Source of the DNA: Flavobacteriia bacterium
Lineage (GTDB): Bacteria > Bacteroidota > Bacteroidia > Flavobacteriales > Flavobacteriaceae
DNA: 64,000 bases
Reading direction: 5' to 3'
NCBI GenBank assembly: GCA_004293165.1
Contig: RDYL01000009.1
Coordinates: 62,001-126,000 of the forward strand
Shown: positions 15,004 through 32,182 of the stretch, in pieces
Layout of the letters: each line of letters starts with the position of its first letter
Position numbering within the stretch: position 1 is the stretch's first letter
The notes under the pieces: model-generated
Told to the model about the DNA's origin: nothing
Databases searched by the model: none
The model's input: the letters and a program-made list of their open reading frames with translations, nothing else
Made by a program: the position numbers and the translations under genes

Positions 15004-15034
15004 AAAAAAACTGTGTTACACTTCTGTAACACAG
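15004..15034 (-). terminator. Rho-independent terminator at the left end of the phage-like operon
   Basis: A perfect 10-bp stem CTGTGTTACA / TGTAACACAG with a 4-base loop is followed on the minus strand by a run of seven T. It lies 25 bp past the stop of the last small gene of the element and marks the end of its long transcript. Confidence 0.85.
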
Positions 15035-15058
15035 CCATACTAACTTAATCAATTTAAA

Positions 15059-15223
15059 CTATTTTTTTGGTTTTGCCTTTACAACTTTACCCCCTTTAAC
15101 ATACCTAAAACCTTTTTTTAGAGTTCCGTCTTTTTTCACACCTTCCCTTTTGATTACACTACTACAAAGTTTCTTTGCGGAGATTCTTTTTTTGCCTTTC
15201 GATTTTGTTTTTTTCGCTACCAT
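15059..15223 (-). CDS. Tiny highly basic protein (54 aa)
   Basis: ATG at 15221-15223, stop at 15059-15061. About 23 of the 54 residues are Lys or Arg, with very few acidic ones (for example VAKKTKSKGKKRISAKKL and KKGFRYVKGGKVVKAK). It is the last gene before the terminator and follows the large polyvalent gene by 15 bp. Such a composition fits nucleic-acid binding, for example DNA condensation in a virion, but no family is recognised. Being so short it is easily missed in annotation. Confidence 0.6.
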   Translation of the reverse strand: MVAKKTKSKGKKRISAKKLCSSVIKREGVKKDGTLKKGFRYVKGGKVVKAKPKK

Positions 15224-15238
15224 GATTTTGAATTTAGA

Positions 15239-17437
15239 TTATTTAACTTTAAATGATAATTTTCTTTTACTTTTTTGTTCTGTTGGCTCGCTGACTACTT
15301 TCTTGTAATACATCGAGTATTTTAAAGTGAGGTCATTCCCTCTGTTTTTTTCAAGAGTTGCAAATCTTTGTTTTGGGTCTTGATGTGATGAACAATGAAT
15401 TACTGAAGTTGGATTGTGTGCCATTTTGTTACCGCCATACATCGCCCCATTTTCCTTGACTTGAGATATAAAGCACCAAATTACTTTTGGGTAAGTGGTT
15501 CTTAAATAATTCAGTTGGTCGGCTGTAATTTTTAAATCTGTAACCGAATCCGCAATTATGACTTTAACCACTTTACAGAAGTCCTGCAATTCTTCAAAAG
15601 GTTTTTCTAAATAACCTTTTATAGCTATGTACTTTCTGCCTTTCTCGCTCGTATTTCGATTAATACTGTCTAGCGTGTCTTTACTTTCAATCCCGCCTTG
15701 CTCGTAATCAATGTAGGCTACTGGTGTTTGTTGTTCTCCGAAAGCGTTAGCAATCTGCATAGCCAACTGTGATTTTGAACTGTGCTTATTCCCTTTAATC
15801 AGGATAAGTGCCTTGTGTGGTTGTTGCTTTTGCAAAAACTTTCCAATCTCTCCATCAAGTATAAAAACATCTTTAGCCTCTTTTGGTGCTGTTCCCGCTG
15901 AAACAAAGCCTAATTTTTCTAATTGATTTAGACTTTTATTCTGATCCAAATTGGGTTGTCTTTTACTTACCCTAGTTGTAGTTTTTTTTGTTGCCGGCAC
16001 AACTCTTCTTTTCTTCTCTTCAGTAGCTTTTTTGGTTTTGGCTTTTGCTCCTAATCCTGCAAATAAATCCAATTGCTCCCCCTGTTTGGTTTTGCTTTTA
16101 ACTTTACTTTTTGTTGGTCTCTTTACTGGAGTTTTTACAGCTACTTTCTTGGTTGACTCTTCTTTCTTTTCTTCTTCTTGTTCATTCTCGCTGTCGGTGT
16201 TTCTATTTAAAATGTAATTGACTGCCTTTTGAGATTGTGCTGAAGCTTTGAGGAAAAAACGGTTGTCGTTCTCTAATTCATTTACTAAAACCTTGTTCCA
16301 ACTTTTAAGATACTTTGCCGAGTTCTCTTTCGTCTGAAATAAAATCCCTGCCTCTGAACATAAAAATACTGCTCCTAGTTCTGCAATAAGTTCTTCGTAA
16401 GCATAGCTTTTACTTCCAAACTTTCCTGAAAAATCTCTATCCAATCGCTTCTTTGCACCTGTTGAGTGTGTCAGCTCGTGAAAGAAAGTGCAGTAATAAG
16501 ATGCCTCTTTGTTAAAAGCATTTATTTTAGGCATATTGAGCGTATCGGTAGCAGGTTGATAATAGGCTTTATCACCAACAAAAGTATAAATAGGCGGGTT
16601 TTTATACCCGTCAATCAGTAACTGTGCTTGTTGAATTGGATTGACCTTTTTGCTATCAATTTTATCACTCGGAAATTTTAATCCTGTACAATCATCGGCT
16701 CTGAAAACATTGTAATATTTAATTACTGGGATTTTCACTAAATGCTGTTTCAAATCATCTTTGGTTAGTCCGTGAGCTTTTACAAACTCGGTAAACTTTG
16801 CCTTGTCGGTGGTTTTGAATTTTAGCGTTCCATCATCATAATTAAAAATCATGGTATAATAAATAACACGCCTTGCCTTACTATCTTTTTTGAGTGATGC
16901 GTTAGCATCTTTGATTTGGTTAAAGGTTAAATAGTAGGGCTGTATAAACTTAATCGGCACTAAATAACCTTTGCCCTCTTCATCAAATTTTATATCGAAA
17001 TTCAAAAGGAAATTTGCCCCAGTATATTCTTTCTTACTCACATAGTTTTTAGCTGTCCCATCAGCTCCCGAACCAACCCAATCTTTTTGCCAAGGCAAAT
17101 GCCCAACCTTTTCAATGGTATTGATAATTAAGTCCGTGATGTAGCTGTAAATATCATCAGGCGAAACACCATTTAAACCACCCTCTGAATCGGGTTCTGA
17201 TTGATATTCTAAAGTGGGCAAAATGATACTTTGCTCTGCACCACTTAATCCTAATTCAGTAATAAAATCGTTTATTTCAATTTCAAAAACGGAATCTTTA
17301 TTCTGTCTTAAAACGTTTGTGATGCGTTTTGAAATAAGCGTATGATTTTGCTTTTTGGCTCTTGCCAGTAGCTTTTTTAGTGTGCTTCGGGAAACTTGCT
17401 TTCCGTTTAGATTATTAAATGATTGTACTAAATCCAT
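15239..17437 (-). CDS. Polyvalent protein: ArdC-like, zincin metallopeptidase and RecA-like ATPase domains
   Basis: 732 aa, three parts. Residues ~90-260 resemble the ArdC N-terminal ssDNA-binding domain (GHLPWQKDW, YYNVFRADDCTGL). Residues ~320-390 form a zincin-like metallopeptidase with HELTH and the downstream EELIAELG. A basic linker (KKVAVKTPVKRPTKSKVKSK) leads to a RecA/RadA-like ATPase from ~520: Walker A KGNKHSSKSQLAM, Walker B VKVIIADSVTD, then CFISQVKENG. ArdC proteins are antirestriction factors, and ArdC-zincin fusions are typical polyvalent proteins of phages and plasmids that may enter the cell with the DNA. It is the largest product of the element and could help it establish itself. 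No other ATPase that could package DNA is seen in the element. Confidence 0.75.
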   Translation of the reverse strand: MDLVQSFNNLNGKQVSRSTLKKLLARAKKQNHTLISKRITNVLRQNKDSVFEIEINDFITELGLSGAEQSIILPTLEYQSEPDSEGGLNGVSPDDIYSYITDLIINTIEKVGHLPWQKDWVGSGADGTAKNYVSKKEYTGANFLLNFDIKFDEEGKGYLVPIKFIQPYYLTFNQIKDANASLKKDSKARRVIYYTMIFNYDDGTLKFKTTDKAKFTEFVKAHGLTKDDLKQHLVKIPVIKYYNVFRADDCTGLKFPSDKIDSKKVNPIQQAQLLIDGYKNPPIYTFVGDKAYYQPATDTLNMPKINAFNKEASYYCTFFHELTHSTGAKKRLDRDFSGKFGSKSYAYEELIAELGAVFLCSEAGILFQTKENSAKYLKSWNKVLVNELENDNRFFLKASAQSQKAVNYILNRNTDSENEQEEEKKEESTKKVAVKTPVKRPTKSKVKSKTKQGEQLDLFAGLGAKAKTKKATEEKKRRVVPATKKTTTRVSKRQPNLDQNKSLNQLEKLGFVSAGTAPKEAKDVFILDGEIGKFLQKQQPHKALILIKGNKHSSKSQLAMQIANAFGEQQTPVAYIDYEQGGIESKDTLDSINRNTSEKGRKYIAIKGYLEKPFEELQDFCKVVKVIIADSVTDLKITADQLNYLRTTYPKVIWCFISQVKENGAMYGGNKMAHNPTSVIHCSSHQDPKQRFATLEKNRGNDLTLKYSMYYKKVVSEPTEQKSKRKLSFKVK

Positions 17438-17438: not shown

Positions 17439-17909
17439 CTATTGAATTATTGAATATTCTTTACCTAAAACCCCTAAAATGGTTTCAATTTGAATGTCTT
17501 TTATCCCTGTGATTTTCACTAGGCTTTGCATATTGGAAAGGTTCTCCAGTATCGGAATCTCAACTACCAAATCCTTTAAAACAAACTTGCCATTGGCGGG
17601 AACTGAAACAAATGATTTGTTTACCGTAATGGTTGCAATTCGTTTGGCTGTTTTGTCTTTAAGTACAATTCTCTTAACAACTGCAATAACACCATCAGGG
17701 CTGAAATTATCCTTTGTGGGATTAAAAAGAGTTACATCTAAATTGAACCTCATTCTTTTGAAATTGATGTCAAAATTTCTAAATCCAGTCGGCAACGCTT
17801 TGAGTTTTCCCATTGTTTCTTTCCACTTATTTACCTTGTTTTTGTACCATAGTACGCCAACGCCTACCAGTGCGCCAGCAATAACAATATGCTTTGCTCT
17901 TATACCCAT
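17439..17909 (-). CDS. Membrane-anchored LEA14/WHy-like domain protein (156 aa)
   Basis: One N-terminal membrane segment (HIVIAGALVGVGVLWY) is followed by a short basic stretch and a ~115-residue beta-rich domain resembling the LEA type-2 (WHy) fold: MRFNLDVTLFNPTKDNFSP, then VKRIVLKD and SVPANGKFVLKDLVVEIP. It overlaps the start-side gene by 10 bases and precedes the polyvalent gene by 1 base, so it belongs to the same long operon. It is one of many single-span proteins in this element and is a candidate virion membrane protein. Confidence 0.65.
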   Translation of the reverse strand: MGIRAKHIVIAGALVGVGVLWYKNKVNKWKETMGKLKALPTGFRNFDINFKRMRFNLDVTLFNPTKDNFSPDGVIAVVKRIVLKDKTAKRIATITVNKSFVSVPANGKFVLKDLVVEIPILENLSNMQSLVKITGIKDIQIETILGVLGKEYSIIQ

Positions 17910-18454
17910 AAACTTGTTTTGTTTCTGATAAATACAACCGTTTTAAACCCAATCAAAAGAAGTGTTGCAATTCCCAAAACCATTAAAAACTTCTCCAGTT
18001 TAGTTAATGGCTTTTCAATCTCAATTGGAATCTTTTTTACCCTAATTATAGTTTTATCATTTGCTGTATTGGTAGTTGTATTTTCATTTTTGGTCTGCGC
18101 AATTTTAGCGTAGAACTCCAGTTGTTTGGCTAGTTTGTTAAACTCAAGTTTATAGCTGTTGTCTCCTGAATTTTTTGAAGTATTCAGTTTTGATAAAATT
18201 TCATCAATCTTTGCATTTACTAGGCTATCAACTTCCTTGTTTCCTGTATTGCTTTGAACAACTGGAGTAATTAATTTATCATCGATTGCCTGATTAATGA
18301 TTACATTTCTGAGGCTGTCTCTTCTTTGAATTTCACTTTTGAGTAGTGTGTTTTCCTCTTTGTATTTTTTAGCTGAAGAACAGCCGATAAAAACAAAAGA
18401 AAGTAGCACCAGTAAAAGTGAGATTGCAAATGATTTATTGATTGTCTGTTTCAT
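17900..18454 (-). CDS. Unimolecular-spanin-like lipoprotein (184 aa)
   Basis: The N-terminus is a lipoprotein signal peptide ending in VFIGC with the lipidated Cys at residue 25. A charged, helical periplasmic part (residues ~28-150) with coiled-coil character follows, and a C-terminal membrane segment FLMVLGIATLLLIGF (about 156-170) ends the chain. A lipid anchor for the outer membrane at one end and an inner-membrane helix at the other is the architecture of a unimolecular spanin (u-spanin, as in phage T1), which fuses the two membranes at the end of lysis. It lies just downstream of the holin-like and GH19 endolysin genes. The role is inferred from topology and context. Confidence 0.6.
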   Translation of the reverse strand: MKQTINKSFAISLLLVLLSFVFIGCSSAKKYKEENTLLKSEIQRRDSLRNVIINQAIDDKLITPVVQSNTGNKEVDSLVNAKIDEILSKLNTSKNSGDNSYKLEFNKLAKQLEFYAKIAQTKNENTTTNTANDKTIIRVKKIPIEIEKPLTKLEKFLMVLGIATLLLIGFKTVVFIRNKTSLWV

Positions 18455-18564: not shown

Positions 18565-18921
18565 TTAAAGAGTTGTCTTTTCACTTATCAATTGTTTTAG
18601 CTTGTCAAAAATTGCCCCTAATAGATCTTCCATTCTTTTATGGAAAATGGTTGAAAATGAACCGCACCAAGCACAAACTACATAAGTAAAAAGTTTGCTA
18701 GTGTGCAGGAACTGGTCAAAGAAGCCATACACCAAGAGAGCAACAAAAAATGATACAATTGCTTCGGCTAAAAACCATTTCCAAGAGGCTTTTACTCCCT
18801 GTCGCACTTGCTTTATTATTTTCACAAATGCTCCCATACTTACGAGTAAAAGAAATAATAGAAAATCCATTAATTGTTTGGAATGATTGGTTAACCATTC
18901 CCATATTTGTTGTTTTGTCAT
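18565..18921 (-). CDS. Holin-like membrane protein (118 aa)
   Basis: Three hydrophobic segments are visible: about residues 20-36 (FLLFLLLVSMGAFVKII), 48-67 (WFLAEAIVSFFVALLVYGFF) and 77-93. The charged C-terminal tail (KRMEDLLGAIFDKLKQ) is cytoplasmic-like. Size and topology match phage holins with three spans. The gene lies directly after the GH19 endolysin and before the spanin-like gene, the usual order of a lysis cassette. Holins permeabilise the inner membrane to release or activate the endolysin. Confidence 0.65.
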   Translation of the reverse strand: MTKQQIWEWLTNHSKQLMDFLLFLLLVSMGAFVKIIKQVRQGVKASWKWFLAEAIVSFFVALLVYGFFDQFLHTSKLFTYVVCAWCGSFSTIFHKRMEDLLGAIFDKLKQLISEKTTL

Positions 18922-19004
18922 TGCTTGTATAGTTTACTGATTAAGATTGAAAAGCCCAGACCAAAAATTGTAATAGGGATTATGTAAGAGTGCTGTCTTG
19001 ACAT
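18918..19004 (-). CDS. Possible 28-residue membrane micro-protein
   Basis: ATG at 19002-19004 inside the 3' end of the GH19 gene; TGA at 18918-18920 overlapping the holin-like start as ATGA. The product is essentially one membrane helix (YIIPITIFGLGFSILI) with a short basic tail. The exact ATGA coupling suggests translation. The reading is short, so confidence is modest. Confidence 0.35.
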   Translation of the reverse strand: MSRQHSYIIPITIFGLGFSILISKLYKQ

Positions 19005-19621
19005 TTTTTTTTTAATATCCCCATTGTATCAACAGAGATATAATAATTGAGTTGTTTAACTCTTTCCTCTAAATTGGTTAAGCCTCCATTTATCTTTTCG
19101 GTTATGGAATTGATGTTGTTTTTATCGGCAATCGGATTGAGCTTGAATCTAACCGACCAAAACCAACCTGCTATATCAATAGCTATATCGGGTCTTGAGG
19201 CTAAATCGGGATTTGCAATTACATCATGCCCGGAATAATCTTTATAGGCTTGGTAGTTGGCTCTCCCTGTGAGTTGAATAAGTCCACGACCTCTAAATCG
19301 CCAACCATCACCAACCTGTGTATTCCCTAAATTTATTCTTCCCCAATTACCGCCATAAACAATATTTGCAATGGCTTGTTGATTGGCTTTTTGCTTTGCT
19401 GTTCTGCCGTATTGGTTAGCCTGTGCAACCGAAATCTGATTAGTTCCAAAAGTTTTAATTAGCCCCTGTGGAGTGTAATTCAAACTTTCCGTAAACTTTA
19501 TAAATCCTCCGCTTTCCTCATGTAATTGTGCCAAAAAATGCGCAATCCGTCTTGGAGTATTGATAGCATATTTTTTAAAAATGCTTAAAAAAGTGATGCT
19601 GTTTGTCAGTAAAAATTCCAT
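18980..19621 (-). CDS. GH19-family glycoside hydrolase, predicted endolysin
   Basis: 213-aa enzyme of the GH19 chitinase/lysozyme-like family without a signal peptide. The catalytic region is HFLAQLHEESGGF (about residues 28-40) and the family motif FRGRGLIQLTGRANY lies near residues 108-122. In phages, GH19 enzymes cut peptidoglycan as endolysins; lack of a signal peptide fits holin-dependent release. It begins within the stop of the upstream 46-residue gene (TAATG overlap) and is followed by the holin-like gene. Confidence 0.85.
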   Translation of the reverse strand: MEFLLTNSITFLSIFKKYAINTPRRIAHFLAQLHEESGGFIKFTESLNYTPQGLIKTFGTNQISVAQANQYGRTAKQKANQQAIANIVYGGNWGRINLGNTQVGDGWRFRGRGLIQLTGRANYQAYKDYSGHDVIANPDLASRPDIAIDIAGWFWSVRFKLNPIADKNNINSITEKINGGLTNLEERVKQLNYYISVDTMGILKKKCQDSTLT

Positions 19622-19761
19622 TACAATACTACTTTTTTGGGTTCTTTAGTTGGCTTGTTTTCTGTCTCTTTAATTTCAGGTGCTTTCTCATTATCCATAG
19701 TGGCAACAACTAAAATTCCTGCTACGGCTAGTGATAGCCATAATGCTCCGCTTGTACTCAT
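19621..19761 (-). CDS. Small single-span membrane protein (46 aa)
   Basis: ATG at 19759-19761; the stop overlaps the GH19 start. The N-terminal half is one membrane helix (GALWLSLAVAGILVVATM) and the tail is charged and Pro/Lys/Glu-rich. It starts 2 bp after the preceding gene, so spacing and overlap on both sides support a real gene. Candidate minor virion membrane protein or lysis regulator. Confidence 0.55.
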   Translation of the reverse strand: MSTSGALWLSLAVAGILVVATMDNEKAPEIKETENKPTKEPKKVVL

Positions 19762-19763: not shown

Positions 19764-20462
19764 TTAAAAGTCTTTTAGTTTGATTTGTTTTACACCTTTT
19801 TGGGCTAATAGTGCGTTTTCAGTATTACGCCCGAAATCTCCGTCAACCTTGATTTTAAGTAGTGTTTGCAAGGCTCTTACTTCAAGCCCTTTGCTTCCTT
19901 TTTTCAAGAGTTTGCTTTTATCTACTCCCGAACCGTTTGATGAACTAACCGATGCAACTGTTGGGTAAATTTTACCTACTGGTTTTATAACATCTTGGTC
20001 AGCAATCCAATAAATATCATTGAGCAATGCGCCGTTTCTTTGCACTACATAGCGATACGTTCCGTCAGGTCTTAAACCAACCCAAATAATAGTACCGATT
20101 TTATCGCCCTTTTTAAAAGTGGCTTTTCGGATTCCCTCACTGATATAATTACCGTCAGCCATTTTCCTAGCATCATAGGTTTTTGTACCATAAAATCCTG
20201 TCGCCATTACTTCCTGCCCAATGCTGTATCTAAAACTATCAGCTACTACTGGGGCTTTGACTGGGGCTTTGGGTTTTACTGGAGTTTGAACCTTGATTGG
20301 ATTGGTAGCCAATGTTGGAGTTTTTACAGGTGCTACTGGTTCTATTGGTTCTTCAATATAATTCTGCTGTTTGTCATTACCTTTTTGAACAAAATAATAG
20401 ATGCCACCACCTACCGCTAGGGCTATACCGCCACCAATCCATAATTTATCTTCTGTGGTCAT
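19764..20462 (-). CDS. Membrane-anchored protein with C-terminal peptidoglycan-binding domain (232 aa)
   Basis: An N-terminal membrane segment (LWIGGGIALAVGGGIYYFV) is followed by a Pro/Lys/Val-rich linker, then a beta-rich SH3-like part (FRYSIGQEVMATGFYGTKTY, about residues 77-160). The C-terminal ~45 residues resemble a peptidoglycan-binding domain (GSKGLEVRALQTLLKI, VDGDFGRNTENAL). In a phage this design suits a virion or entry protein that contacts the cell wall. It lies 1-2 bp from both neighbours in the long operon. Confidence 0.7.
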   Translation of the reverse strand: MTTEDKLWIGGGIALAVGGGIYYFVQKGNDKQQNYIEEPIEPVAPVKTPTLATNPIKVQTPVKPKAPVKAPVVADSFRYSIGQEVMATGFYGTKTYDARKMADGNYISEGIRKATFKKGDKIGTIIWVGLRPDGTYRYVVQRNGALLNDIYWIADQDVIKPVGKIYPTVASVSSSNGSGVDKSKLLKKGSKGLEVRALQTLLKIKVDGDFGRNTENALLAQKGVKQIKLKDF

Positions 20463-20463: not shown

Positions 20464-20886
20464 TTATAATTGTTTTGGATAATTTGATTTTAATAATTGA
20501 TAATCTTCTGTACTTAATTCCTCTTTGAGCCAAACCTTTAAAGGGTGCTTTGTCGGAGTTTGCCAAAAAGCGAAATAGGTGTTACCTGTTAGGGTGTTAT
20601 AATATCTATTTCCAAAGGCTGTAATCACTTTTGAAAATTGTGCTTCAGTTACTCCAGTAAGTGCTGTAAAAATGGTTTTGCGCTTTTCGGTGTTAGTGAA
20701 ATTGGCTTCTTTCATTGCATTGAAAAGCATTGTGGCAACTTCTTTAGCATTGAAACTCGAATCCGTTAAACCTGCATCCAAATACGCTCCTGCCTTTTTA
20801 TTTTTACTGGTTTGGGAAACTGCCAAAAGCATTATTCCTAGTCCTGCAAGTCCAATGGTTACAGGGATAATTTTTGTACTTTCCAT
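20464..20886 (-). CDS. Single-span protein with annexin-like helical domain (140 aa)
   Basis: The N-terminal membrane segment is IIPVTIGLAGLGIMLLAV. A ~85-residue helical domain follows: AKEVATMLFNAMKEANFTN, TIFTALTGVTEAQFSKVI, then WLKEELSTEDYQLL. The spacing of A--L--AM, AL-GV---F--V and L--EL resembles one annexin repeat. The next gene upstream encodes a protein of the same plan, so they look like diverged paralogues. Candidate virion membrane proteins; no enzymatic residues are seen. Confidence 0.55.
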   Translation of the reverse strand: MESTKIIPVTIGLAGLGIMLLAVSQTSKNKKAGAYLDAGLTDSSFNAKEVATMLFNAMKEANFTNTEKRKTIFTALTGVTEAQFSKVITAFGNRYYNTLTGNTYFAFWQTPTKHPLKVWLKEELSTEDYQLLKSNYPKQL

Positions 20887-20887: not shown

Positions 20888-21382
20888 TTAAAAAAAGTGC
20901 GGTATTAAAAAGCGTAATTCCATAAGTTCGCTTGGGTTAAACTGGTCGGCAAACCATTCTATCATTGTCATTTTCTTTGATAAGGGATTAATACCTTTTC
21001 TTTGCCCAAACTCGTTGTAAATCCTAATAAATCCATTGTGATTAACTCCCATCAGATTTTGTTTTACAGATTTAAACCCATTTCCAAAACCATACATTGC
21101 GCTAAAAATGGCTTCCGCTTTATTCTTTGCCATTCCAGTAGAAATATTACTTGGCTTTTCTCTTCTATCTTCACTTAATTTAGAAAAGCCGTTAAAAATC
21201 TTCTTGTAAACAAAATATCCAACCCCAAGAAAAAAGCCTGTTTTAAGTACACCCTTTACAATTGAAGCCGTTGCATTTACTGTAGCATTGGCATTGTCAA
21301 GCGTATTGGCGATTGCCTTTTGCCCTTGTGGGGAAGAAGCTACTGCCATAACTGCTGGATTGTGTAAACCTTGTTTTTTCAT
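20888..21382 (-). CDS. Single-span protein, paralogue of the downstream annexin-like protein (164 aa)
   Basis: The N-terminal ~45 residues are Ala-rich, followed by a membrane segment (VLKTGFFLGVGYFVYKKIF, about 46-65). The C-terminal domain repeats the plan of its neighbour: AEAIFSAMYGFGNGFK, LMGVNHNGFIRIYNEFGQR, then WFADQFNPSELMELRF. It is 1 bp from the neighbour. Similarity between the two is in pattern, not close identity. Function unknown; probably structural. Confidence 0.55.
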   Translation of the reverse strand: MKKQGLHNPAVMAVASSPQGQKAIANTLDNANATVNATASIVKGVLKTGFFLGVGYFVYKKIFNGFSKLSEDRREKPSNISTGMAKNKAEAIFSAMYGFGNGFKSVKQNLMGVNHNGFIRIYNEFGQRKGINPLSKKMTMIEWFADQFNPSELMELRFLIPHFF

Positions 21383-21600: not shown

Positions 21601-21795
21601 CTACATTATGAACTCTTTTATTGTTTGCCAACTCTGCGCATCAGTTACCATTGCAATTGCTTTTTGAGAGTTTTTAAGTTCTACCAACTTCTCTAAAACC
21701 TCATTATCTAAATCGGCTAGGGTTTCAATCAATTTTGCTTTTTTCTGCAACTTGAAAGGGTTTGTTTCCTTTGTTTTTATGGTTAATGCGCTCAT
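21601..21795 (-). CDS. Small hypothetical protein (64 aa)
   Basis: Charged helical protein (KLIETLADLDNEVLEKLVEL) without membrane segments. Its ATG overlaps the last base of the preceding gene's stop, so it is translationally coupled to the 263-residue coiled-coil protein. Possibly its partner. No family recognised. Confidence 0.55.
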   Translation of the reverse strand: MSALTIKTKETNPFKLQKKAKLIETLADLDNEVLEKLVELKNSQKAIAMVTDAQSWQTIKEFIM

Positions 21796-22587: not shown

Positions 22588-22863
22588 TTAAATTAGTTTC
22601 TTGTAGATAAGTAGTATTTTGTTTTTTGGGGTGTAACCCTTTTTGCTGTTATTGGTATCTGTGTAGATTACCTCTAATTGCACTTTTGAATAAGTACCAT
22701 CAGGCACAACTAAAATTTGTTTTTGGGTTGGGTATATCAGAACTCCGTTAACCTGTGCTATGCTTGTGCCTTTATTGACAACGCAAAGTGAAGTAACATT
22801 CTCTAAAACTGGGATTTGCTCTTCTCTAAATTCTCTTGTTATAAAAGCCGATTCTACAAACAT
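22588..22863 (-). CDS. Small beta-rich protein, candidate minor capsid protein (91 aa)
   Basis: Short alternating hydrophobic strands run through the chain (VTSLCVVNKGTSIAQVNGVL, QKILVVPDG, VQLEVIYTD). There is no signal peptide, membrane helix or enzyme motif. It is next to two other beta-rich genes (22866-23240 and 23299-23856). As a set they look like jelly-roll or penton-type virion proteins. The assignment is by composition and context only. Confidence 0.5.
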   Translation of the reverse strand: MFVESAFITREFREEQIPVLENVTSLCVVNKGTSIAQVNGVLIYPTQKQILVVPDGTYSKVQLEVIYTDTNNSKKGYTPKNKILLIYKKLI

Positions 22864-26079: not shown

Positions 26080-26111
26080 AAAAAAACCTCGCCTTTAGGT
26101 AAAGCGAGGTA
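26080..26111 (-). terminator. Terminator between early and late modules
   Basis: On the minus strand, ACCTCGC, a 10-base loop and GCGAGGT are followed by a run of seven T. It separates the replication-side genes (26214 and up) from the late genes (26040 and down), so the late operon should have its own promoter in about 26041-26080. Confidence 0.75.
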
Positions 26112-26173: not shown

Positions 26174-26214
26174 ATTGCAATGATTTTGAAATACCATTGC
26201 AATAAAATTGCAAT
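26174..26214. promoter_or_regulatory. Three ATTGCAAT palindromes spaced 22 and 11 bp
   Basis: The 8-bp palindrome ATTGCAAT starts at 26174, 26196 and 26207. Further copies are at 26559, 26869 and 26890, 28846 and 28868, 29984 and 29995, 30319, 30530 and 32134. Close pairs are 11, 21 or 22 bp apart. This cluster is next to the AGGTAY array and the early/late boundary. Confidence 0.55.
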
Positions 26215-26441
26215 TAGCTACTATCATCAAGATAAAATCCTTTGGGTAATCCATAGGTTTCCACAAATTCCATAAACTCTAAATGAGGTATTATTTTGGT
26301 ATCTTTCGATATGTTTTTCTCTTTTAAAATCTCATTGATTTGCTTTCTGATTTTGGTTTCACTAAACTGGTCACAATACATCTCAACCAATTCCGATTTT
26401 GTTGCAGAGTGAGGAAGCGGTTTTTTGATGTTTTTATTCAT
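26214..26441 (-). CDS. Small hypothetical protein (75 aa)
   Basis: Charged soluble protein (KKPLPHSATKSELVEMYCDQ, KHL-type helices in the middle). It overlaps the preceding 71-residue gene by 8 bases. The tail of its coding region merges with the ATTGCAAT cluster. Possibly a small DNA-binding or regulatory protein; no family recognised. Last gene of the early operon before the terminator. Confidence 0.5.
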   Translation of the reverse strand: MNKNIKKPLPHSATKSELVEMYCDQFSETKIRKQINEILKEKNISKDTKIIPHLEFMEFVETYGLPKGFYLDDSS

Positions 26442-26649
26442 TTTTACAGTCGGTTTGTTCTTTAACTTTTAAATCATTTATTTTAAATAATGTTCTGAAA
26501 ACATAGGATTCCAAAAACTTTAATATCCTGTTCTTTCCTAGTATAATAAAATCCAAAAATTGCAATGGAGCAGTTAGAATAATTGCAAAGCATACAAGTA
26601 ATGCAAACAAGTTGTATCGAACTATTTTAAGGCGGTTTACAAAGGTCAT
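26434..26649 (-). CDS. Small membrane protein (71 aa)
   Basis: One strong hydrophobic segment (LFALLVCFAIILTAPLQFL, about residues 15-33) with basic flanks and a polar C-terminus. Overlaps the next gene by 8 bases and follows the previous gene by 3 bp. Part of the early operon. Function unknown. Confidence 0.5.
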   Translation of the reverse strand: MTFVNRLKIVRYNLFALLVCFAIILTAPLQFLDFIILGKNRILKFLESYVFRTLFKINDLKVKEQTDCKNE

Positions 26650-26652
26650 AGT

Positions 26653-26994
26653 TTAAATGTTTATTAGTTTTTCATGCAACAAATCGGATATAGTTTGCAT
26701 CGTAAATTTTTGCTCTTCTGTTCTGTCATTTCTTTTCCATTGACAACAGAAAAGAAGTATTACTGCCTGTGATGGTGTAAATGCAATATTTGAAACCTTT
26801 TTGGGGTTTTCAATCTTGGTTCTGAAAGTATAGAACATACTTTGGAGTACATCTATAACAATGATGTCATTGCAATACTTTTCATAATCATTGCAATTGG
26901 AAATATTATCTACTTTGTGGCGGATAAACTTTAAAAGTTCCGACTGGATAATAACAATGTTTTCCTTTTTGATTTTCTTTAAAACTATCTTCAT
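26653..26994 (-). CDS. Hypothetical protein (113 aa)
   Basis: Soluble helical protein (ENIVIIQSELLKFIRHKVDN, PSQAVILLFCCQWK). No motif recognised. It lies 1 bp from the neighbouring 74-residue gene and 3 bp from the small membrane protein gene, so it is part of the early operon. Its coding sequence carries two ATTGCAAT sites 21 bp apart (26869, 26890). Confidence 0.5.
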   Translation of the reverse strand: MKIVLKKIKKENIVIIQSELLKFIRHKVDNISNCNDYEKYCNDIIVIDVLQSMFYTFRTKIENPKKVSNIAFTPSQAVILLFCCQWKRNDRTEEQKFTMQTISDLLHEKLINI

Positions 26995-26995
26995 A

Positions 26996-27220
26996 TCAAT
27001 ACTTAAATTCTGCGATTAACAAATTATTTTCATAGAACTGGACGACATTAGTCCGGTTAAAGAGTTCTTTCCTTTTAAGGCGGTTAAGCATACTCTTGAT
27101 TATTGCCTCATTGTCTCTGCTGTTCTGATTTATAGGAGAGTGCCAAACCACGTTATCATCCCTACCTTTGGTTAGAATTACCATTTTAATCTTTGATTTC
27201 TCTTTCTTAAATACTGGCAT
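26996..27220 (-). CDS. Hypothetical protein (74 aa)
   Basis: Small basic protein (FKKEKSKIKMVILTKG at the start, NRLKRKELFNRTNVVQFYE later). It lies 10 bp after the replication-like gene and 1 bp before the next gene. A nucleic-acid-binding accessory role is possible. No family recognised. Confidence 0.45.
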   Translation of the reverse strand: MPVFKKEKSKIKMVILTKGRDDNVVWHSPINQNSRDNEAIIKSMLNRLKRKELFNRTNVVQFYENNLLIAEFKY

Positions 27221-27230: not shown

Positions 27231-28988
27231 TTAAAATTCAAAAAAGCTATATTTTACGGTCTCTTCACTGGTAATTACATGGCTCTTTTCGTTAGTTTTA
27301 AGCGATTTTTTTAGTATCAAATCAGGTAATTTATCAAGATACTGTTTTGGTAAATTCTGCTCTACATAATCGAATAATTGCGAGTAAGTCAACTTGTTTT
27401 TAAAGAATCGGTTTATTGCCGTCTCACACTTTTTGGAGTGGTTGATAGTCTCTTTTCTTTTGGTTGCATTGCTTTGCTGTTTCTTCTTTATGGCACCATA
27501 CTTGGCAACGGCTGATAAATGCTCATTCCATTTGGTTTTAGTGTATTCAAAACCTACTTCTTTTGCCGTTTTTCGGGTCATATCGAAATAATCGTATGGG
27601 AATAATGGCGAAAACTCATTTTTAGCAAACCATTTTCTAGCCCACTCGATACGCCATCGCATTTGGCTTATTTCATCAACCAACACGCTCTTATTAAAGC
27701 TGTTTCCTGTAAAGGCAATCCACTTGTTCTGATAATACAGATTAATGGCTTTTTTGTAGCTTCCTGCAAAAGGAGTAGCCGTTTTGTAAATCTTTGATAC
27801 GGATTTGAAAAAGTCCTGTATTGCCAGTTCTCTAAACTCTTCATTGGTTAGCGTACCGCTGAAAGCTTCTTTGTACAGATAGCGAATGTCGATAGGCTTG
27901 TAATTGTGATATAGTCCACTAGCTAGGTTTTCGGCTAGTTCCTGTGGATGTAGAATTAACTCCTGCAAGTGGTCTGAAAGCGTTTTTTCTTTGCTTTGTG
28001 ATTCGCCCGCCGCCCCCTTAGTGGAAATAGCTTCTTTGCTGGTATGTGTTCCTGTAAAAAACAAATGAGAAGGCGTGAGAGCTTGGCTCGAACTCCTTAT
28101 ACCCTGAGAATTGTTTTCAACATTCTCTTTCTTTTTATTTTCATTTATAAATGTTCTTGTACTTTCATTGTTATCAGGTAAAACATTCCAATATGTAAGT
28201 TTAAGTTCTTTGTTTTCAGAGCGTTTTATTTTTGAGGTGTAAACATCCAAAATCACGAGAATTTCAGGATTTATATGTAGCTCAACAGGTCTGTTTCTCC
28301 CTGCGAAATGATATTCCACAAACACTCCTGCCTCTTCTAAACGCTTTCTGTGATTACGAACCGTTTTAGAGCAAATAGCTATACTGTTAACCTCATTTCG
28401 CTTTAGCTGGGTAACTAGAAAGGAATTGATTTTAAACTCTTCAATTGGTCGCTTAGATGTAATACCACCTTTGATAAACTTCTCATTGCGTTTCATCAAT
28501 TGGGAGTTATACAAATGCAATAGATTTTGAAACACTACTTCAGTAGCATATTTTACCGTTTGGATTTTCTTTTTCTCTACGATAAGCCCATAATCATTGC
28601 AAAACTGGGTAACTGCCTCGTTATAGTTTCTTGGATTACTATTCTTTGAATTATGGAGTAAAAACAGTCTTTTGTACTCTTTTTGAATATCAGTCAATGA
28701 ATTTGCTTTACAAAATTCCTTTACAGAATTATTGTGCGCTTGTATCAGTTCGTTTTCTGCCTGTGTTTTAAAATTATAGGACGCAATATACTTGCGGTAA
28801 TTATCCATCGTACTTGAAAATGCCTCTTCAATGATTGCAGGATAAATTGCAATTATTCTGCCTGACAATTGCAATGGTTTTTCAACTGGTGTTTGTTGAA
28901 CTTCTACAGCTTGATTTTCTCCAAAGCCAAAAAGCGTAGATGCCATTGAAAAAAATTTGTTATCTAGTCTTTGCGTGTTTATACTCAT
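27231..28988 (-). CDS. Replication/regulatory-like protein with winged-helix region (about 585 aa)
   Basis: I chose the ATG at 28986-28988 (MSINTQRL); an upstream ATG at 29021 would translate through the hairpin at 29011-29034. Residues ~165-240 look like a winged helix (FLVTQLKRNEVNSIAICSKT, then VRNHRKRLEEAGVFVEYHFA). The rest is helical and charged. Position after an excisionase-like gene and before small early genes fits a replication initiator or element regulator of Bacteroidetes mobile elements. No nickase or polymerase motif is seen. ATTGCAAT sites at 28846 and 28868 lie in its 5' part. Confidence 0.5.
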   Translation of the reverse strand: MSINTQRLDNKFFSMASTLFGFGENQAVEVQQTPVEKPLQLSGRIIAIYPAIIEEAFSSTMDNYRKYIASYNFKTQAENELIQAHNNSVKEFCKANSLTDIQKEYKRLFLLHNSKNSNPRNYNEAVTQFCNDYGLIVEKKKIQTVKYATEVVFQNLLHLYNSQLMKRNEKFIKGGITSKRPIEEFKINSFLVTQLKRNEVNSIAICSKTVRNHRKRLEEAGVFVEYHFAGRNRPVELHINPEILVILDVYTSKIKRSENKELKLTYWNVLPDNNESTRTFINENKKKENVENNSQGIRSSSQALTPSHLFFTGTHTSKEAISTKGAAGESQSKEKTLSDHLQELILHPQELAENLASGLYHNYKPIDIRYLYKEAFSGTLTNEEFRELAIQDFFKSVSKIYKTATPFAGSYKKAINLYYQNKWIAFTGNSFNKSVLVDEISQMRWRIEWARKWFAKNEFSPLFPYDYFDMTRKTAKEVGFEYTKTKWNEHLSAVAKYGAIKKKQQSNATKRKETINHSKKCETAINRFFKNKLTYSQLFDYVEQNLPKQYLDKLPDLILKKSLKTNEKSHVITSEETVKYSFFEF

Positions 28989-29010
28989 AAGAATTTGTTT
29001 TAACCCTTGA

Positions 29011-29034
29011 CAATGGCGCATTTTCGCGCCATTG
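29011..29034. repeat. GC-rich perfect hairpin ahead of the replication-like gene
   Basis: CAATGGCGC and GCGCCATTG form a 9-bp perfect stem around a 6-base loop, the most GC-rich dyad in the early region. It lies between the HTH gene and the replication-like gene and has no T run. It may be an attenuator, operator or replication-origin hairpin. Confidence 0.5.
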
Positions 29035-29071: not shown

Positions 29072-29350
29072 TTATTTCTTAAAAGATTTATTGTAATTCT
29101 CTGCCAGTAGCTTATCTACATCAGCCATTTTGTAGTAAATCTTGTTTCCGACTTGGCTAAAAGATATTTTTCCCTCGTCTCTCCAACTTTGAGCAGTACG
29201 TTTTGAGATACCCATAAACTTCATAAACTCTTCATTATCCATAATGGTTTTTTTTGAAGTATCGGGTTGGGTGCTGATTAAATTTTGCAAAGTATCTAAC
29301 CTTGTGGTTAACTCTGAAAACTGGGCTTTAGACAAAATATATACCTCCAT
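29072..29350 (-). CDS. MerR/excisionase-like helix-turn-helix protein (92 aa)
   Basis: The C-terminal half is a typical helix-turn-helix of the Bacteroidetes excisionase type: EFMKFMGISKRTAQSWRDEG, then ISFSQVGNKIYYKMADVDKL. The N-terminal ~35 residues form a helix. Such proteins work with the tyrosine integrase in excision or regulate early genes. Upstream lies a 400-bp region with repeated AAAAGACTTTTT-like motifs, probably its operators. Confidence 0.8.
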   Translation of the reverse strand: MEVYILSKAQFSELTTRLDTLQNLISTQPDTSKKTIMDNEEFMKFMGISKRTAQSWRDEGKISFSQVGNKIYYKMADVDKLLAENYNKSFKK

Positions 29351-29747: not shown

Positions 29748-29752
29748 TTTAA

Positions 29753-30661
29753 TTATAAAATCTTGGTTACATCAATACGCTTATTTGAGTTCGGGCGTTT
29801 ATCTTCTCTGGAGGGTTGCAGGATAGTTTTAACGCTTTGCGGACTGATTTCTTTGCCGTCTTTATCAACGAATGAGTTTACTATGATATTTGCAACATCA
29901 TTAATATTCCCCTCAATAACTGGCTTACCGTCAATAAGGATTTCACGAGACAGTTGGTAAAAAATATCTACAAACTGATTGACATTGCAATTGAATTGCA
30001 ATTTTGTGAAATTGTTGGGGCTTATGGATGTTGCAGGTTTCTGTTTTTCAATAGTACTTTTTATACTCTGCATTTCATAAATCTGCTCAATCTCTTTGGC
30101 ACATTGTTTATCAAACAAAGGTAATTTTTGATTCAAAAATTCAATATTAGCCTGTTTATACTCATGTTTTTCTTTAGTTAACAAAAGGATTTTTTCATTG
30201 TCATCATCTAGTGAGCCAAGTTGCTTTTTGATTTCATAAAATGAAAAATACCTTTCATCACTTTCTGCATTGATATATCGTTTTGCTACACTAGGTTTGA
30301 TTGGTTTTGCAGTTGAGCATTGCAATAAATCTCTTTTCTTTTCGATAAGATTGCATAGTTTGTTGTACCTAGACAATAAACCATTTTCAACAAAAAGTTT
30401 CTCATTTTCTGCAATAAGCAAATCAAAACTGTCGAGCCAACTTGAAGGGGATTTGACCTGTTCTAGTTGATGATTTATAAAATTTAAAAACTGGGTTTGA
30501 GGTAATTTAAAAAGCTTTTGAATTACAGCATTGCAATAGTCTTCAATTGTGCTTTGCTCTTCTACAATTACATCTAAATTAGTGTTATTTGACTGTACAG
30601 AAGTTACAGACATTTGCTCCAAAAAAGGAACTGATTTTACTGGGATTTTGTTAGAGTTCAA
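29753..30661 (-). CDS. Mobile-element protein of unknown function (302 aa)
   Basis: Helical, charged N-terminal part; the C-terminal ~80 residues read NVNQFVDIFYQLSREIL, GNINDVANIIVNSFVDKDG and SPQSVKTILQPSREDKRP. This block looks like a tail often found in Bacteroidetes integrative-element proteins of unknown role. It has its own terminator and is separated from the integrase by another, so it is a single-gene unit. Four ATTGCAAT sites lie inside it. No enzymatic motif is visible. Confidence 0.5.
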   Translation of the reverse strand: MNSNKIPVKSVPFLEQMSVTSVQSNNTNLDVIVEEQSTIEDYCNAVIQKLFKLPQTQFLNFINHQLEQVKSPSSWLDSFDLLIAENEKLFVENGLLSRYNKLCNLIEKKRDLLQCSTAKPIKPSVAKRYINAESDERYFSFYEIKKQLGSLDDDNEKILLLTKEKHEYKQANIEFLNQKLPLFDKQCAKEIEQIYEMQSIKSTIEKQKPATSISPNNFTKLQFNCNVNQFVDIFYQLSREILIDGKPVIEGNINDVANIIVNSFVDKDGKEISPQSVKTILQPSREDKRPNSNKRIDVTKIL

Positions 30662-30732
30662 GTATGGTTAGTTTGGGTTAGTGTTACTTTTTCTAAAATC
30701 GCAATAATTGAATTTTCGTCACATTTTATCAA

Positions 30733-30760
30733 AAAAAAACCCTAAAACAAGGGTTTTTTT
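30733..30760 (-). terminator. Terminator after the integrase gene
   Basis: AAAAAAACCCT and AGGGTTTTTTT form an 11-bp stem with a 6-base loop, followed by T on the minus strand, about 80 bp past the integrase stop. Confidence 0.8.
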
Positions 30761-30842
30761 CATAAACTAACTCATTTTTGCCTATGATTTGCAACAAAGA
30801 TAATACGGAAATAATTTATAATTTAGTTAAAAAATACGATTG

Positions 30843-32060
30843 TTAAAAAATAAATTCGTCCACTGCTTTATCTAATTCCTCGTTAATAATCTTGGCGTAA
30901 ATCTGTGTTGTTCTAATATCTTGGTGATCCATTAATTTAGAAACGTGTTCAATTCTCATTCCGTTATTAAGTGCGTTGGTAGCGAAACTATGACGGCTCA
31001 AATGGAAAGAAACGTGTATTGGAAACTCCAAAGTTTTTGCAATTCTCTGTATCTGAAAATTTGCTGACTTATTGGCTTTTTCGGTTATCTCATATCTGTA
31101 CTCTTTGTTCTTTAAAAACAAGGTTGGATTTTTCACAATTGGAAAAATAAGGTCGTCAGGTTGTGAATTTGGTTTTTGATATTTTTTGATAATATCAAGA
31201 GCAATTTGACCAATTTTAAATTGGTGTAATCTCCCTGTTTTATTTATTGTCTTTTTAATTCTTTGTTCAGCCTCGATGAAGTGTTTATTTTGGATTTCTA
31301 AAACATCACTAAAACGTAATCCTCCGGCATAAATTGAAAAAACGAACATATCCCTGTAAATACAGCTTAAAGTTCCCTCTTGGGCTTTAAAATCAATCAT
31401 AGCCTGTATTTGTTCTTTCTTTAAAAATAACCTTTTACCAGTATCCTTTTTTAATGTAAGTTTACTAAAGGGATACATATACTCAGGGATAATATCCTCT
31501 TTTATGGCTTCCTTGAACATAATGGCTAAAATCATTATAGAATATCTTTGAGTTGTCGCTCCATTTTTTAACGTATTACCCATATAACTCATATAATCCA
31601 TTAAAAGAGAAACTGTAATATCATCAAAATAAACATCTCTTGTTCCAGTCCATTTTTCAAACTTTTCTAAATAGACGATATAGTTTTTATAGGTGGCAAT
31701 GGAAACATTACCTCTGATTTTTTCACAACGTTTATAGGCGTACTCAAAAAAGTTAGGCACTTCTTTTCCTTTGATTGCTTCCTTGATTTTCTTTACCGAA
31801 ACAGATTTTACCTTTCTTTCCAAGTCGGCAACTTGCGCTTCCGCATCAGCAACCTTTTGAGAAATGGAAGCATTCATTCTTGCGCTATTGGGATGGTTTT
31901 TCTTTACACGCTGTTTTCCCTCGTCCCATTCGGTTTCTTTTAACTTTAAACCGACTGAAATAAATTTAGTTTTTCTATCTTTAATAATTCTTATATACAA
32001 TGGAGAATGACCCGTTTGGTCGGCTTGATGTGTTCTTAAAATCAGTTTAATTGATGCCAT
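30843..32060 (-). CDS. Tyrosine site-specific integrase, Bacteroidetes type
   Basis: 405 aa, the usual length. An N-terminal arm-binding domain (IKLILRTHQADQTGHSPLYI) and a SAM-like core-binding domain (about 100-200) precede the catalytic domain: Arg in YAGGLRFSDVLEI (about 250), HxxR in SFHLSRHSFATNAL (about 350), then MDHQDIRTTQIYAKI with His and the Tyr nucleophile. It is at the right edge of the element and reads inward. Paired GTACAACA sites lie just upstream and match a pair at 5.2 kb, suggesting its arm sites. Confidence 0.93.
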   Translation of the reverse strand: MASIKLILRTHQADQTGHSPLYIRIIKDRKTKFISVGLKLKETEWDEGKQRVKKNHPNSARMNASISQKVADAEAQVADLERKVKSVSVKKIKEAIKGKEVPNFFEYAYKRCEKIRGNVSIATYKNYIVYLEKFEKWTGTRDVYFDDITVSLLMDYMSYMGNTLKNGATTQRYSIMILAIMFKEAIKEDIIPEYMYPFSKLTLKKDTGKRLFLKKEQIQAMIDFKAQEGTLSCIYRDMFVFSIYAGGLRFSDVLEIQNKHFIEAEQRIKKTINKTGRLHQFKIGQIALDIIKKYQKPNSQPDDLIFPIVKNPTLFLKNKEYRYEITEKANKSANFQIQRIAKTLEFPIHVSFHLSRHSFATNALNNGMRIEHVSKLMDHQDIRTTQIYAKIINEELDKAVDEFIF

Positions 32061-32077
32061 ATTATGAAAAAATGAAA

Positions 32078-32182
32078 TGTTGTACTATATTTGTAAAAGG
32101 ATGCAAACGAGTGAAACCCATTAAAATTAAGGGATTGCAATTGAGTGCAACGGAATACAAGAGTACAACATTTAGTACAACA
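32078..32182. repeat. GTACAACA-type sites upstream of the integrase (right arm sites)
   Basis: TGTTGTAC at 32078-32085 is inverted relative to GTACAACA at 32163-32170 and 32175-32182. The last two match the pair at 5211 and 5222. One ATTGCAAT is at 32134. Likely integrase arm-binding or autoregulatory sites. Confidence 0.45.

Follow-up and report, generated by a model that had tools for sequence, protein, structure and literature searches.

A candidate temperate, tailless provirus with two predicted single-jelly-roll proteins in Bacteroidota

Which kind of mobile element combines an integrase, a set of lysis genes and a long run of small membrane proteins with no visible tail? The question is raised by a locus within the window, by which we mean the whole 64,000-nucleotide stretch of Flavobacteriia bacterium contig RDYL01000009.1 that was analysed. 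Read from the letters alone, the locus had been taken for a tailless, lipid-containing prophage or a derivative of one, possibly of an undescribed family.

Extent and gene content of the element

The minus-strand unit placed at 15004-32182 by this sequence-only reading is real, but its true limits are slightly wider: the element covers about 17.3 kb of the minus strand (about 14976-32309). At the DNA level, similarity to independent copies is lost near 14976-15056 at the left end; at the right end it stops at 32306-32309. From its integrase the layout runs through a helix-turn-helix gene and an early module to a terminator, beyond which lies a late operon (26.0 to 15.0 kb). The products of the late operon are small and often anchored in a membrane, and they include holin-like, GH19 endolysin and spanin-like proteins; the element has 26 gene products in all. 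The integrase, HTH gene, terminator, transglutaminase-like, GH19, holin-like and spanin-like genes were each found as claimed. The features, in window positions, are as follows.

30843..32060, minus: tyrosine integrase, 405 aa (PF00589 3.7e-19, Arm-DNA-bind_5 1e-18, SAM_5)
29753..30661, minus: 302-aa early protein (matches in L001, L005, L006, L015)
29072..29350, minus: HTH_17 excisionase-like protein, 92 aa (PF12728 1e-10)
27231..29021, minus: 596-aa putative replication initiator (suggested by the place of its gene and by a stretch resembling an HTH)
26214..27220, minus: small early genes of 75, 71, 113 and 74 aa (ORFs)
26086..26110, minus: strong terminator-like hairpin at the early/late module boundary (10 pairs, 5 GC, T-run)
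25186..26040, minus: 284-aa transglutaminase-like protein, opening the late operon (DUF553 3e-5)
24476..25174, minus: 232-aa protein, single C-terminal membrane span (hydropathy)
23895..24464, minus: membrane protein of 189 aa, rich in glycine, encoded next to and upstream of the proposed capsid gene (hydropathy)
23299..23856, minus: 185-aa protein predicted as a single jelly-roll preceded by an N-terminal helix, candidate for the major capsid protein (AlphaFold2 model)
22866..23240, minus: 124-aa protein, the other predicted single jelly-roll, candidate for a penton or additional capsid protein (AlphaFold2 model)
22588..22863, minus: 91-aa product of the capsid cluster's third gene (family A4; adjoins the capsid gene in divergent loci)
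21795..22586, minus: 263-aa protein (syntenic ORFs of 259-316 aa)
21601..21795, minus: 64-aa protein (matches in 15/15 near loci)
20888..21382, minus: 164-aa protein, weak hydrophobic segment (hydropathy)
20464..20886, minus: 140-aa single-span protein (hydropathy)
19764..20462, minus: 232-aa protein, N-terminal hydrophobic segment (peptidoglycan-binding PF09374 0.0096, weak, below cut-off)
19621..19761, minus: 46-aa single-span protein (hydropathy)
18980..19621, minus: GH19 endolysin, 213 aa (PF00182 3.7e-8)
18565..18921, minus: holin-like protein, 118 aa, two hydrophobic segments (Phage_holin_3_3 PF16083 7.5e-5, below curated cut-off)
17900..18454, minus: spanin-like lipoprotein, 184 aa, C-terminal span (lipobox and two segments)
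17439..17909, minus: 156-aa LEA2-like protein, N-terminal hydrophobic segment (syntenic)
15239..17437, minus: polyvalent protein, 732 aa, with ArdC N-terminus, zincin and RecA/AAA-like P-loop domain (PF18818 1.9e-35, PF08401 1.7e-22)
15059..15223, minus: 54-aa very basic protein, 22 K/R (matches in 14/15 near loci)
15009..15036, minus: terminator-like hairpin at the end of the late operon (12 pairs, T-run)

The hairpin scan is weak on its own, since it returned 17 such sites against 11.8 ± 3.7 in shuffled sequences. Membrane segments were found in seven of the 26 gene products, five of them single-span (mean hydropathy of at least 1.6 over 19 residues); a looser cut (1.5 over 17 residues) added the 156-aa protein and the 232-aa protein whose N-terminus is hydrophobic, together with two doubtful cases, the 113- and 732-aa products. 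The earlier count of at least eight single-span proteins was therefore rather generous.

The integrase is 76-83% identical at the protein level to those in the genomes of L005, L006 and L015. Relatives of the 596-aa protein occur in L001, L005, L006 and L015, and in five Tenacibaculum loci at 32-33% identity; as it has no Pfam match, the label "replication-like" given to its gene is plausible but unproven. The 75-, 71- and 113-aa early genes have matches in 14 of 15 near loci and the 74-aa gene in four. Among the late products, residues C111, H146 and D168 of the transglutaminase-like protein, which we take to be the catalytic triad, are invariant in all 27 aligned sequences (the window's own included). 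The 184-aa lipobox protein looks like a unimolecular spanin, and the basic 54-aa protein may bind or condense DNA. The 156-aa protein itself has no Pfam match; its counterpart in L085 gave a LEA_2 match of 1.9e-3, below cut-off. The positional counterpart of the 164-aa protein in L085 carries an annexin repeat.

Pfam searches of 20 window proteins recognised no FtsK-HerA superfamily packaging ATPase (E 0.1), no HK97 capsid, portal, large terminase or tail gene, in line with what had been read from the sequence, and no relaxase, coupling protein or type IV secretion gene, nor any other conjugation family. With PHROGs (10 window proteins), the sole Caudoviricetes-type match was a tail spike at 0.021, to the 164-aa protein. 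In a scan of 139 proteins, no tailed-phage family was among the matches listed (best 25 of 108 and best 25 of 37 families), apart from adhesin-type, tail-fibre-type domains in L045, one of which is filed under head and packaging; likewise, no conjugation family was among the best 25 of 37 families. A weak contrary match, below cut-off, was DUF4134 (0.013), a family known from conjugative transposons, in relative L050. No rolling-circle Rep was recognised in the element. The absence of a canonical packaging ATPase, already named as the weak point of the prophage interpretation, holds: a P-loop-like motif, and a degenerate one, is confined to the polyvalent protein among the 26 products. This protein matches the phrog_6891 ATPase (2.1e-5), and in relatives its P-loop domain is RecA/AAA_24/AAA_25-like.

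Relatives, synteny and mobility

The same gene block is present in many other Bacteroidota genomes, a point that the sequence-only reading had left to be checked. The 185-aa family was matched in 39 of 395 sampled genomes of the class Bacteroidia, and block order is kept across Flavobacterium, Tenacibaculum and Capnocytophaga. In the fully read divergent loci the order, with variations, is transglutaminase, ~300-aa protein, ~150-aa membrane protein and capsid, followed by ~125-, ~90- and ~280-aa proteins, a single-span protein, lysis genes, lipoprotein and LEA2-like gene. A protein of 130-215 aa lies upstream of the capsid gene in 35 of 42 loci, and one of 108-165 aa downstream in 35 of 42. 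Lysis families recurred in the 139-protein scan. The element is integrated and mobile, carries an integrase and lysis genes, and has a strongly conserved late operon.

In nine of 15 near copies an RteC gene stands in place of the integrase module, and no integrase was present in the compared stretch of the seven RteC-bearing copies read. RteC, known from conjugative transposons, was found in other copies only. This replacement, the occurrence of up to five matches in a single genome and the lack of a recognised packaging ATPase would suit a domesticated derivative, in which the capsid-and-lysis block is kept as a gene transfer or killing particle and the element's own genome is no longer transferred. 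However, the L005 and L006 copies are ~89-90% identical over 18 kb in different flanks, several copies retain the integrase, and early modules have been swapped between copies, all of which is typical of active mobile elements; we therefore hold domestication to be unlikely.

No relative was found in 50,697 phage records (three queries) and one was found in IMG/VR (four queries), meaning that the virus finders now in use appear to miss the group. Such near-absence from virus collections is unexpected if particles are common.

Two adjacent genes with predicted jelly-roll products

The AlphaFold2 model of the 185-aa protein (pLDDT 80.2) shows one barrel preceded by an N-terminal helix, and that of the 124-aa protein (pLDDT 84.3) has eight strands. 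Structural alignment with VIA placed the capsid protein chain 6oj0_A of SPV1 (Sulfolobus polyhedral virus 1) first for the 185-aa model (Z 9.6, 149/185 residues, rmsd 4.0), followed by a second row at Z 7.9; the capsid proteins P23-77 VP17 (7.6), SH1 (7.1), HCIV-1 (7.1) and HHIV-2 (6.8), as well as P23-77 VP16 and the STIV turret protein, were also among the best 50 rows. For the 124-aa model the top was a capsid barrel of Emiliania huxleyi virus EhV-201 (Z 9.8, 111-112 residues, rmsd 3.4-3.5), and a faustovirus capsid barrel (8.1) was also among the first rows. Taken together, the models suggest two adjacent single jelly-rolls in a gene order common to distant relatives, and two of the beta-rich proteins that had been singled out for structure prediction do have their best structural alignments with viral capsid proteins. 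According to the alignment tool's own guidance, a best Z of 7-8 is typical where no clear relative exists, and values of 9.6-9.8 stand just modestly above the scores of unrelated jelly-rolls.

Both genes are under purifying selection (dN/dS 0.03-0.14 in six comparisons); the range of 0.03 to 0.075 for the 185-aa gene (three comparisons) makes it more than a chance reading frame. No sequence relation between the two families was detectable. A profile of 24 sequences, run against every PDB chain with an E limit of 10, gave five matches, all to proteasome subunits, and detected neither the SPV1 capsid chains nor any other solved capsid.

On another reading, which we consider improbable, the jelly-roll proteins are not capsid proteins but components of a surface appendage or of a secretion apparatus, and the lysis-like genes do no more than remodel the wall. 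Plain Foldseek against PDB puts non-capsid proteins first for both: FlhE for the 185-aa model, with SH1 second, no match reaching E 0.001, and 6oj0_A outside the best 50 rows (another SPV1 chain, 6oj0_Z, at rank 36). For the 124-aa model, the five matches at or below 0.001 are to GOLD domains, a subtilisin-type protease, a histone chaperone and a Yersinia mitogen; SPV1 does not appear until rank 11 (E 1.5e-3). Cellular proteins appear in VIA too (Ena pili Z 6.8, FlhE Z 6.0, and GOLD domains Z 8.0 with the 124-aa model), but a viral capsid chain comes first there for both proteins. Moreover, lysins of the GH19, GH108, SLT and amidase types occur in the operons together with genes of holin and spanin kind, an integrase and a polyvalent protein with an anti-restriction role, and one relative has tail-fibre-type adhesin domains. 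That the element is a satellite borrowing a helper virus's capsid, as its ~17 kb size and the lack of a recognised packaging motor might suggest, is very improbable: the element brings two jelly-roll genes of its own as well as lysis genes, and no tailed-phage head family was recognised with PHROGs in the 10 window proteins or among the matches listed for the 139 (best 25 of 108 families), the adhesin-type domains of L045 apart.

Proposed nature of the element and its place among tailless viruses

We consider it probable that the element is a temperate, tailless icosahedral provirus with a single-jelly-roll shell and probably an internal membrane, and that the lineage to which it belongs among the viruses of Bacteroidota is apparently undescribed. 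The jelly-roll models and the absence of any recognised conjugation family favour the original proposal; its lipid would follow from the single-span proteins and the structural relatives. The integrase would insert the element and, with the HTH protein, excise it. Early genes would replicate it with the help of host enzymes and, given that a rolling-circle Rep was not recognised, as double-stranded DNA; the late operon would be expressed afterwards. The 185-aa protein may form hexameric capsomers that its N-terminal helix anchors upright on the membrane, and pentons or another type of capsomer may be made of the 124-aa protein; single-span proteins would organise membrane and vertices, the transglutaminase-like enzyme would process or cross-link the shell, and the 54-aa protein would bind DNA. 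Holin-like, GH19 and spanin-like proteins would lyse the cell. The polyvalent protein may travel in the particle and shield incoming DNA from restriction; its P-loop domain is the only one seen that might power a step of genome packaging or delivery.

Tectiviruses and corticoviruses, with which the element had been compared, have double-jelly-roll capsids; they are of the tailless kind, but portogloboviruses and then helvetiaviruses, with single jelly-rolls, are nearer structural relatives. SPV1 (Portogloboviridae) has a second jelly-roll protein, VP10, which forms pentons; the element's second one is the predicted jelly-roll of 124 aa, for which a penton role is a proposal. The genomes are of similar size (17.3 kb against 20.2 kb in SPV1). 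Small proteins and membrane proteins abound in both, and an FtsK/HerA packaging ATPase is absent from SPV1 and was not seen in the element (PMC8459092; PMC8812541). SPV1, an unusual virus of heat-loving archaea, has its host in the genus Saccharolobus and is presumed non-lytic, whereas the element resides in Bacteroidota, integrated via an integrase, with lysis genes and an ArdC polyvalent protein, and its relatives lie in Flavobacterium, Tenacibaculum and Capnocytophaga genomes. The Portogloboviridae virion holds circular dsDNA, an internal membrane and a nucleoprotein core; the element is known here from its genes.

Helvetiavirae (realm Singelaviria; Sphaerolipoviridae, Simuloviridae, Matsushitaviridae) likewise have two adjacent single-jelly-roll genes, whose products are vertical capsid proteins in P23-77, SH1 and HHIV-2 and models in the element. 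They are described as encoding an FtsK-HerA packaging ATPase (PMC8812541), in contrast to the element, where none was seen. Finnlakeviridae (FLiP), PRD1, PM2 and Autolykiviridae are tailless, small and membrane-rich like the element, but, as double-jelly-roll viruses do (Varidnaviria), they have two barrels per capsid chain, against one in the model of the 185-aa protein and a second encoded by a separate gene. FLiP, which is described as infecting Flavobacterium and as lacking a packaging ATPase too (PMC5894146, PMC8812541), is an ssDNA virus; in the element no rolling-circle Rep was recognised.

More tentatively, and with somewhat less than even confidence, we propose a deep, class-wide provirus lineage whose capsid is of the kind that has been predicted as ancestral to the single-jelly-roll realm: one major capsid gene resembling that of SPV1, a small jelly-roll encoded apart from it, and no packaging ATPase of the FtsK/HerA type. 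It would be hidden in about one in ten Bacteroidia genomes, and a RecA-like domain, joined in one chain to an anti-restriction protein that is injected, may replace the usual packaging motor. An SPV1-like make-up in bacterial relatives from culturable genera would open the proposal of a single-jelly-roll ancestor to bench testing. A dormant tailless virus in Flavobacterium, with relatives unnoticed in about a tenth of the sampled genomes of its class, would mean that Bacteroidota, Capnocytophaga and Tenacibaculum included, have a further group of tailless viruses that is widespread and has been overlooked.

Anatomy, mobility and surroundings of the element

We consider it quite probable that the element is a temperate tailless virus. 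It comprises 26 genes in one direction, on the minus strand of the window, and its ends, set by DNA similarity to independent copies, fall at ~14976-15056 and 32306-32309. The early genes come in the order integrase, 302-aa protein, HTH protein, 596-aa putative replication protein and small early genes, and two terminators follow:

26110-26086, minus strand: strong hairpin terminator between the early and late genes
15036-15009, minus strand: second terminator, closing the late genes

Such a virus would integrate, then use the early replication module and then a late operon of genes for shell, membrane and lysis, in which the single-span proteins, the transglutaminase-like protein and a basic 54-aa protein (22 K/R among 54 residues) would have their putative roles. 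Rfam gave no match anywhere in the window. A 27-bp imperfect tandem repeat (24006-24061), within the gene of a 189-aa membrane protein, encodes acidic repeats of the GLGGYID...GNYVE type.

Mobility is apparent from two near copies, L005 and L006, which are ~89-90% identical across 18 kb (0.9 to 19.2 kb) and differ in the genes outside. The window's whole early module is common to these two and to the near copy L015, and L001 has part of it with another integrase. In nine other near copies (L002-L004, L007-L009 and L011-L013, at their upstream ends) an RteC gene stands in place of this module (PF09357, 1.6e-83 in L012). In seven RteC copies inspected, RteC is followed by an HTH gene, a putative initiator and a P-loop AAA protein (families checked in L012), and no integrase was seen inside the element; farther out in L002, past other genes, lies an integrase-like ORF. 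From these differences it follows that early modules are exchanged while the late block stays.

No attachment core emerged, as the flanks compared share no word longer than 12 bp and a second comparison gave none of use. The integrase end is adjoined by an imperfect palindrome of ~90-130 bp, running from (T/C)AACG to CTGTTA, which we take to resemble an integron attC site. It lies at the following places:

32295-32420, window: palindrome at the integrase end
808-936, near copy L005: palindrome
348-466 and ~929-1017, near copy L006: palindromes
L098 (the L015 copy): palindrome
L100: palindrome, heading an island with restriction-like genes

The palindrome is present in five of the six same-subfamily integrase copies whose upstream DNA was inspected, the one without it being L101. 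In one genome (G1108) four pattern matches within 8 kb have the same direction, and may be arranged as in a cassette array. Because pattern counts are near those of the reversed control (10 matches versus 7 in four genomes, with 0 in the own genome, and a stricter pattern likewise equal to its control), nothing beyond the clustering and the placement at insertions is notable.

Outside the element, the window forms a large defence island. On the element's strand, ~135 bp past its last terminator, a Gabija pair begins (11243-14874; GajA 2e-265, GajB 2e-106), and at its place other copies carry different genes; the element may carry the pair as cargo. Further defence genes (42689-45971 and 50433-61564) are a SIR2 + HerA pair and, accompanied by ThsA/SIR2-like and Orf5/HEC-06-like genes, a type I restriction-modification set.

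Predicted folds of the two jelly-roll proteins

The model of the 185-aa protein (23299-23856), the proposed major capsid protein, was built from 24 sequences (pLDDT 80.2) and has an N-terminal helix (6-22) followed by a beta-barrel. Its first match in VIA-align 2 structural alignment was 6oj0_A of Sulfolobus polyhedral virus 1 (SPV1; Z 9.6, rmsd 4.0, 149 residues); next came a tail fibre (7.9), satellite panicum mosaic virus (7.8) and the STIV turret protein (7.6), then P23-77 VP17 (7.6), SH1 (7.1), HCIV-1 (7.1) and HHIV-2 (6.8), with cellular jelly-rolls (PHM, nucleoplasmin-like domains) at ~5.5-6.7. A fold family missing from such lists was not counted as evidence. The STIV rows were rejected as capsid protein matches, the turret being named in the title of 4ind and 3j31_P aligning over the same residues. 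In an excerpt from PMC8812541, SPV1 VP4 has a DALI Z of 7.5 to its best relative, P23-77 VP17, a value from another program and from solved structures. Foldseek against the PDB returned nothing at E <=0.001 for the 185-aa model (FlhE first, SH1 second), and against a viral library it gave 19 matches that passed 0.001, two of them named capsid and most nameless. A sequence search of all PDB chains with the capsid profile yielded nothing relevant.

The 124-aa protein (22866-23240) was modelled from 24 sequences with eight strands (pLDDT 84.3). Its best VIA-align 2 matches were two capsid barrels, that of EhV-201 (Z 9.8, 111-112 residues, rmsd 3.4-3.5) followed by that of faustovirus (8.1); next came GOLD domains (8.0), the KHP40 cement protein (7.9) and iridovirus (7.7), and lower down PBCV-1 (7.3), HHIV-2 (7.2) and SPV1 (6.8). 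By Foldseek alone cellular proteins lead. Five rows reach E <=0.001 (two GOLD domains, a subtilisin-type protease, a histone chaperone and a Yersinia mitogen), and SPV1 holds rank 11 (1.5e-3). The predicted jelly-roll fold is clear in the model, and a capsid role is suggested by the place of the gene beside that of the 185-aa protein and by the block as a whole. Profile comparison detected no relation between the capsid and second jelly-roll families, nor between the 124-aa family and that of the 91-aa protein (22588-22863), the third gene of the cluster; a recent duplication as the origin of these families is therefore unsupported.

Conservation and distribution of the late block

When genome contigs were searched with the 185-aa protein, 29 loci matched. 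Environmental Flavobacterium strains with copies include F. aquatile LMG 4008 and F. cauense R2A-7. Fifteen of the 29 loci, at 78-99% identity (12 titled Flavobacterium, three other or unnamed MAGs), retain nearly all late genes, and their variable parts are the holin-like gene (matched in four), a 46-aa gene and the early module. The other 14, in Tenacibaculum and Capnocytophaga, are at 27-32% identity. There, the tblastn counts are 13 for the transglutaminase-like protein, 12 for the polyvalent protein and six for the 54-aa basic protein, some gaps being contig ends. In the three distant loci inspected whole (L016, L018 and L021), the other genes are largely at matching places and of similar sizes; beyond these the comparison covered the ORFs just past the capsid gene, which fit in 13/14 (L025 is truncated there by its contig).

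In an even draw of Flavobacteriaceae, 11 of 397 genomes match the 185-aa protein, the own genome counted. With a broader profile, a class draw gave matches at E <=0.001 in 39 of 395 genomes and 26 of 196 genera (at most five within one genome), and a phylum draw in 8/395, tallies that include the own genome and those found previously. Because E-values are per genome, chance should account for less than one match in each draw. Among 42 loci of the range L042-L086 whose capsid ORF matches at E <1e-6, a same-strand upstream ORF of 130-215 aa occurs in 35 and a downstream ORF of 108-165 aa also in 35. Three of the 45 loci in this range were left out, L071 and L074 because no ORF matched (the ORF filter had kept an overlapping opposite frame in L074) and L075 because a stop interrupts it. 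Of the 36 loci L051-L086, 10 are recognised by profile as having the 124-aa family (E <1e-3); six of these are from the family of the window, the other four from different families. In many distant loci the second jelly-roll is therefore assigned by position and size.

A putative lineage of tailless proviruses

The transglutaminase-like protein (25186-26040) is probably an active enzyme, because C111, H146 and D168 are invariant in all 27 aligned sequences, a selection of available loci plus the window. The polyvalent protein (15239-17437) combines ArdC and zincin domains with a C-terminal domain that matches AAA_22 and KTI12 weakly and also matches a PHROG ATPase; in relatives this domain matches RecA/AAA_24/AAA_25-like families, not FtsK/HerA. 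It has the sole P-loop-like motif among the window's 26 proteins. The motif occurs in 21 of 23 polyvalent proteins listed (that of L018 is not among them), and reads SKS for GKS in each of the 13 near proteins; it is missed in L026, a mis-picked short ORF, and in L050, whose domain Pfam recognises. A late protein of one relative (L045:17404-17862) has a chance-like Walker A motif. The anti-restriction protein would probably enter with the DNA by injection.

When 139 proteins from the window and from seven relatives were scanned, the families listed (25 of 108 and 25 of 37) included lysins, holins, MazG, anti-restriction proteins and integrase, and no terminase or portal; one relative, L045, has an adhesin carrying tail-fibre-type domains. 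Annexin-repeat matches were observed in late proteins of two relatives (L085:13188-13883, 8.7e-10; L046:12197-12952, 8.3e-4, below the cut-off); the late operon of a phage would be an odd place for this fold, which is known to bind calcium and membranes.

Against the virus reading, the Z values are modest, the Foldseek rankings favour no capsid, a sequence bridge to known capsids is absent and virus collections hold almost no trace. In IMG/VR three of four queries had no match and the remaining one had a single match; phage records did not match any of three queries. The window protein was unmatched among plasmids, where a distant-relative query found two Persicobacter psychrovividus records at 32%. 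The 53-kb plasmid pPP10 of this species (L086) carries a distant capsid relative, replication/partition genes and an amidase, and is possibly a phage-plasmid form. No paper describing the group stood among the matches listed from open-licence PMC literature, a collection that largely excludes subscription journals and preprint servers; the Charybdis elements (PMC12324425) are a different group, in archaea.

As a temperate tailless virus, the element would form particles with a membrane and package a dsDNA genome. We propose more tentatively, at somewhat below even chances, a class-wide provirus lineage with an SPV1-like major capsid gene, a separate small jelly-roll and no FtsK/HerA packaging ATPase, possibly with a RecA-like domain instead. 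Judged here from genes and predicted folds, the element would work like a portoglobovirus or a helvetiavirus, but it lacks the sequence relation to the former and its archaeal host, and the FtsK-HerA ATPase of the latter. Since it falls outside both definitions, its group is probably a new lineage of single-jelly-roll viruses, at family level or higher, outside the named families. According to part of PMC8812541, packaging ATPases are lacking in SPV1, FLiP-like viruses and one further double-jelly-roll group; the element's group would add another ATPase-less set, in bacteria.
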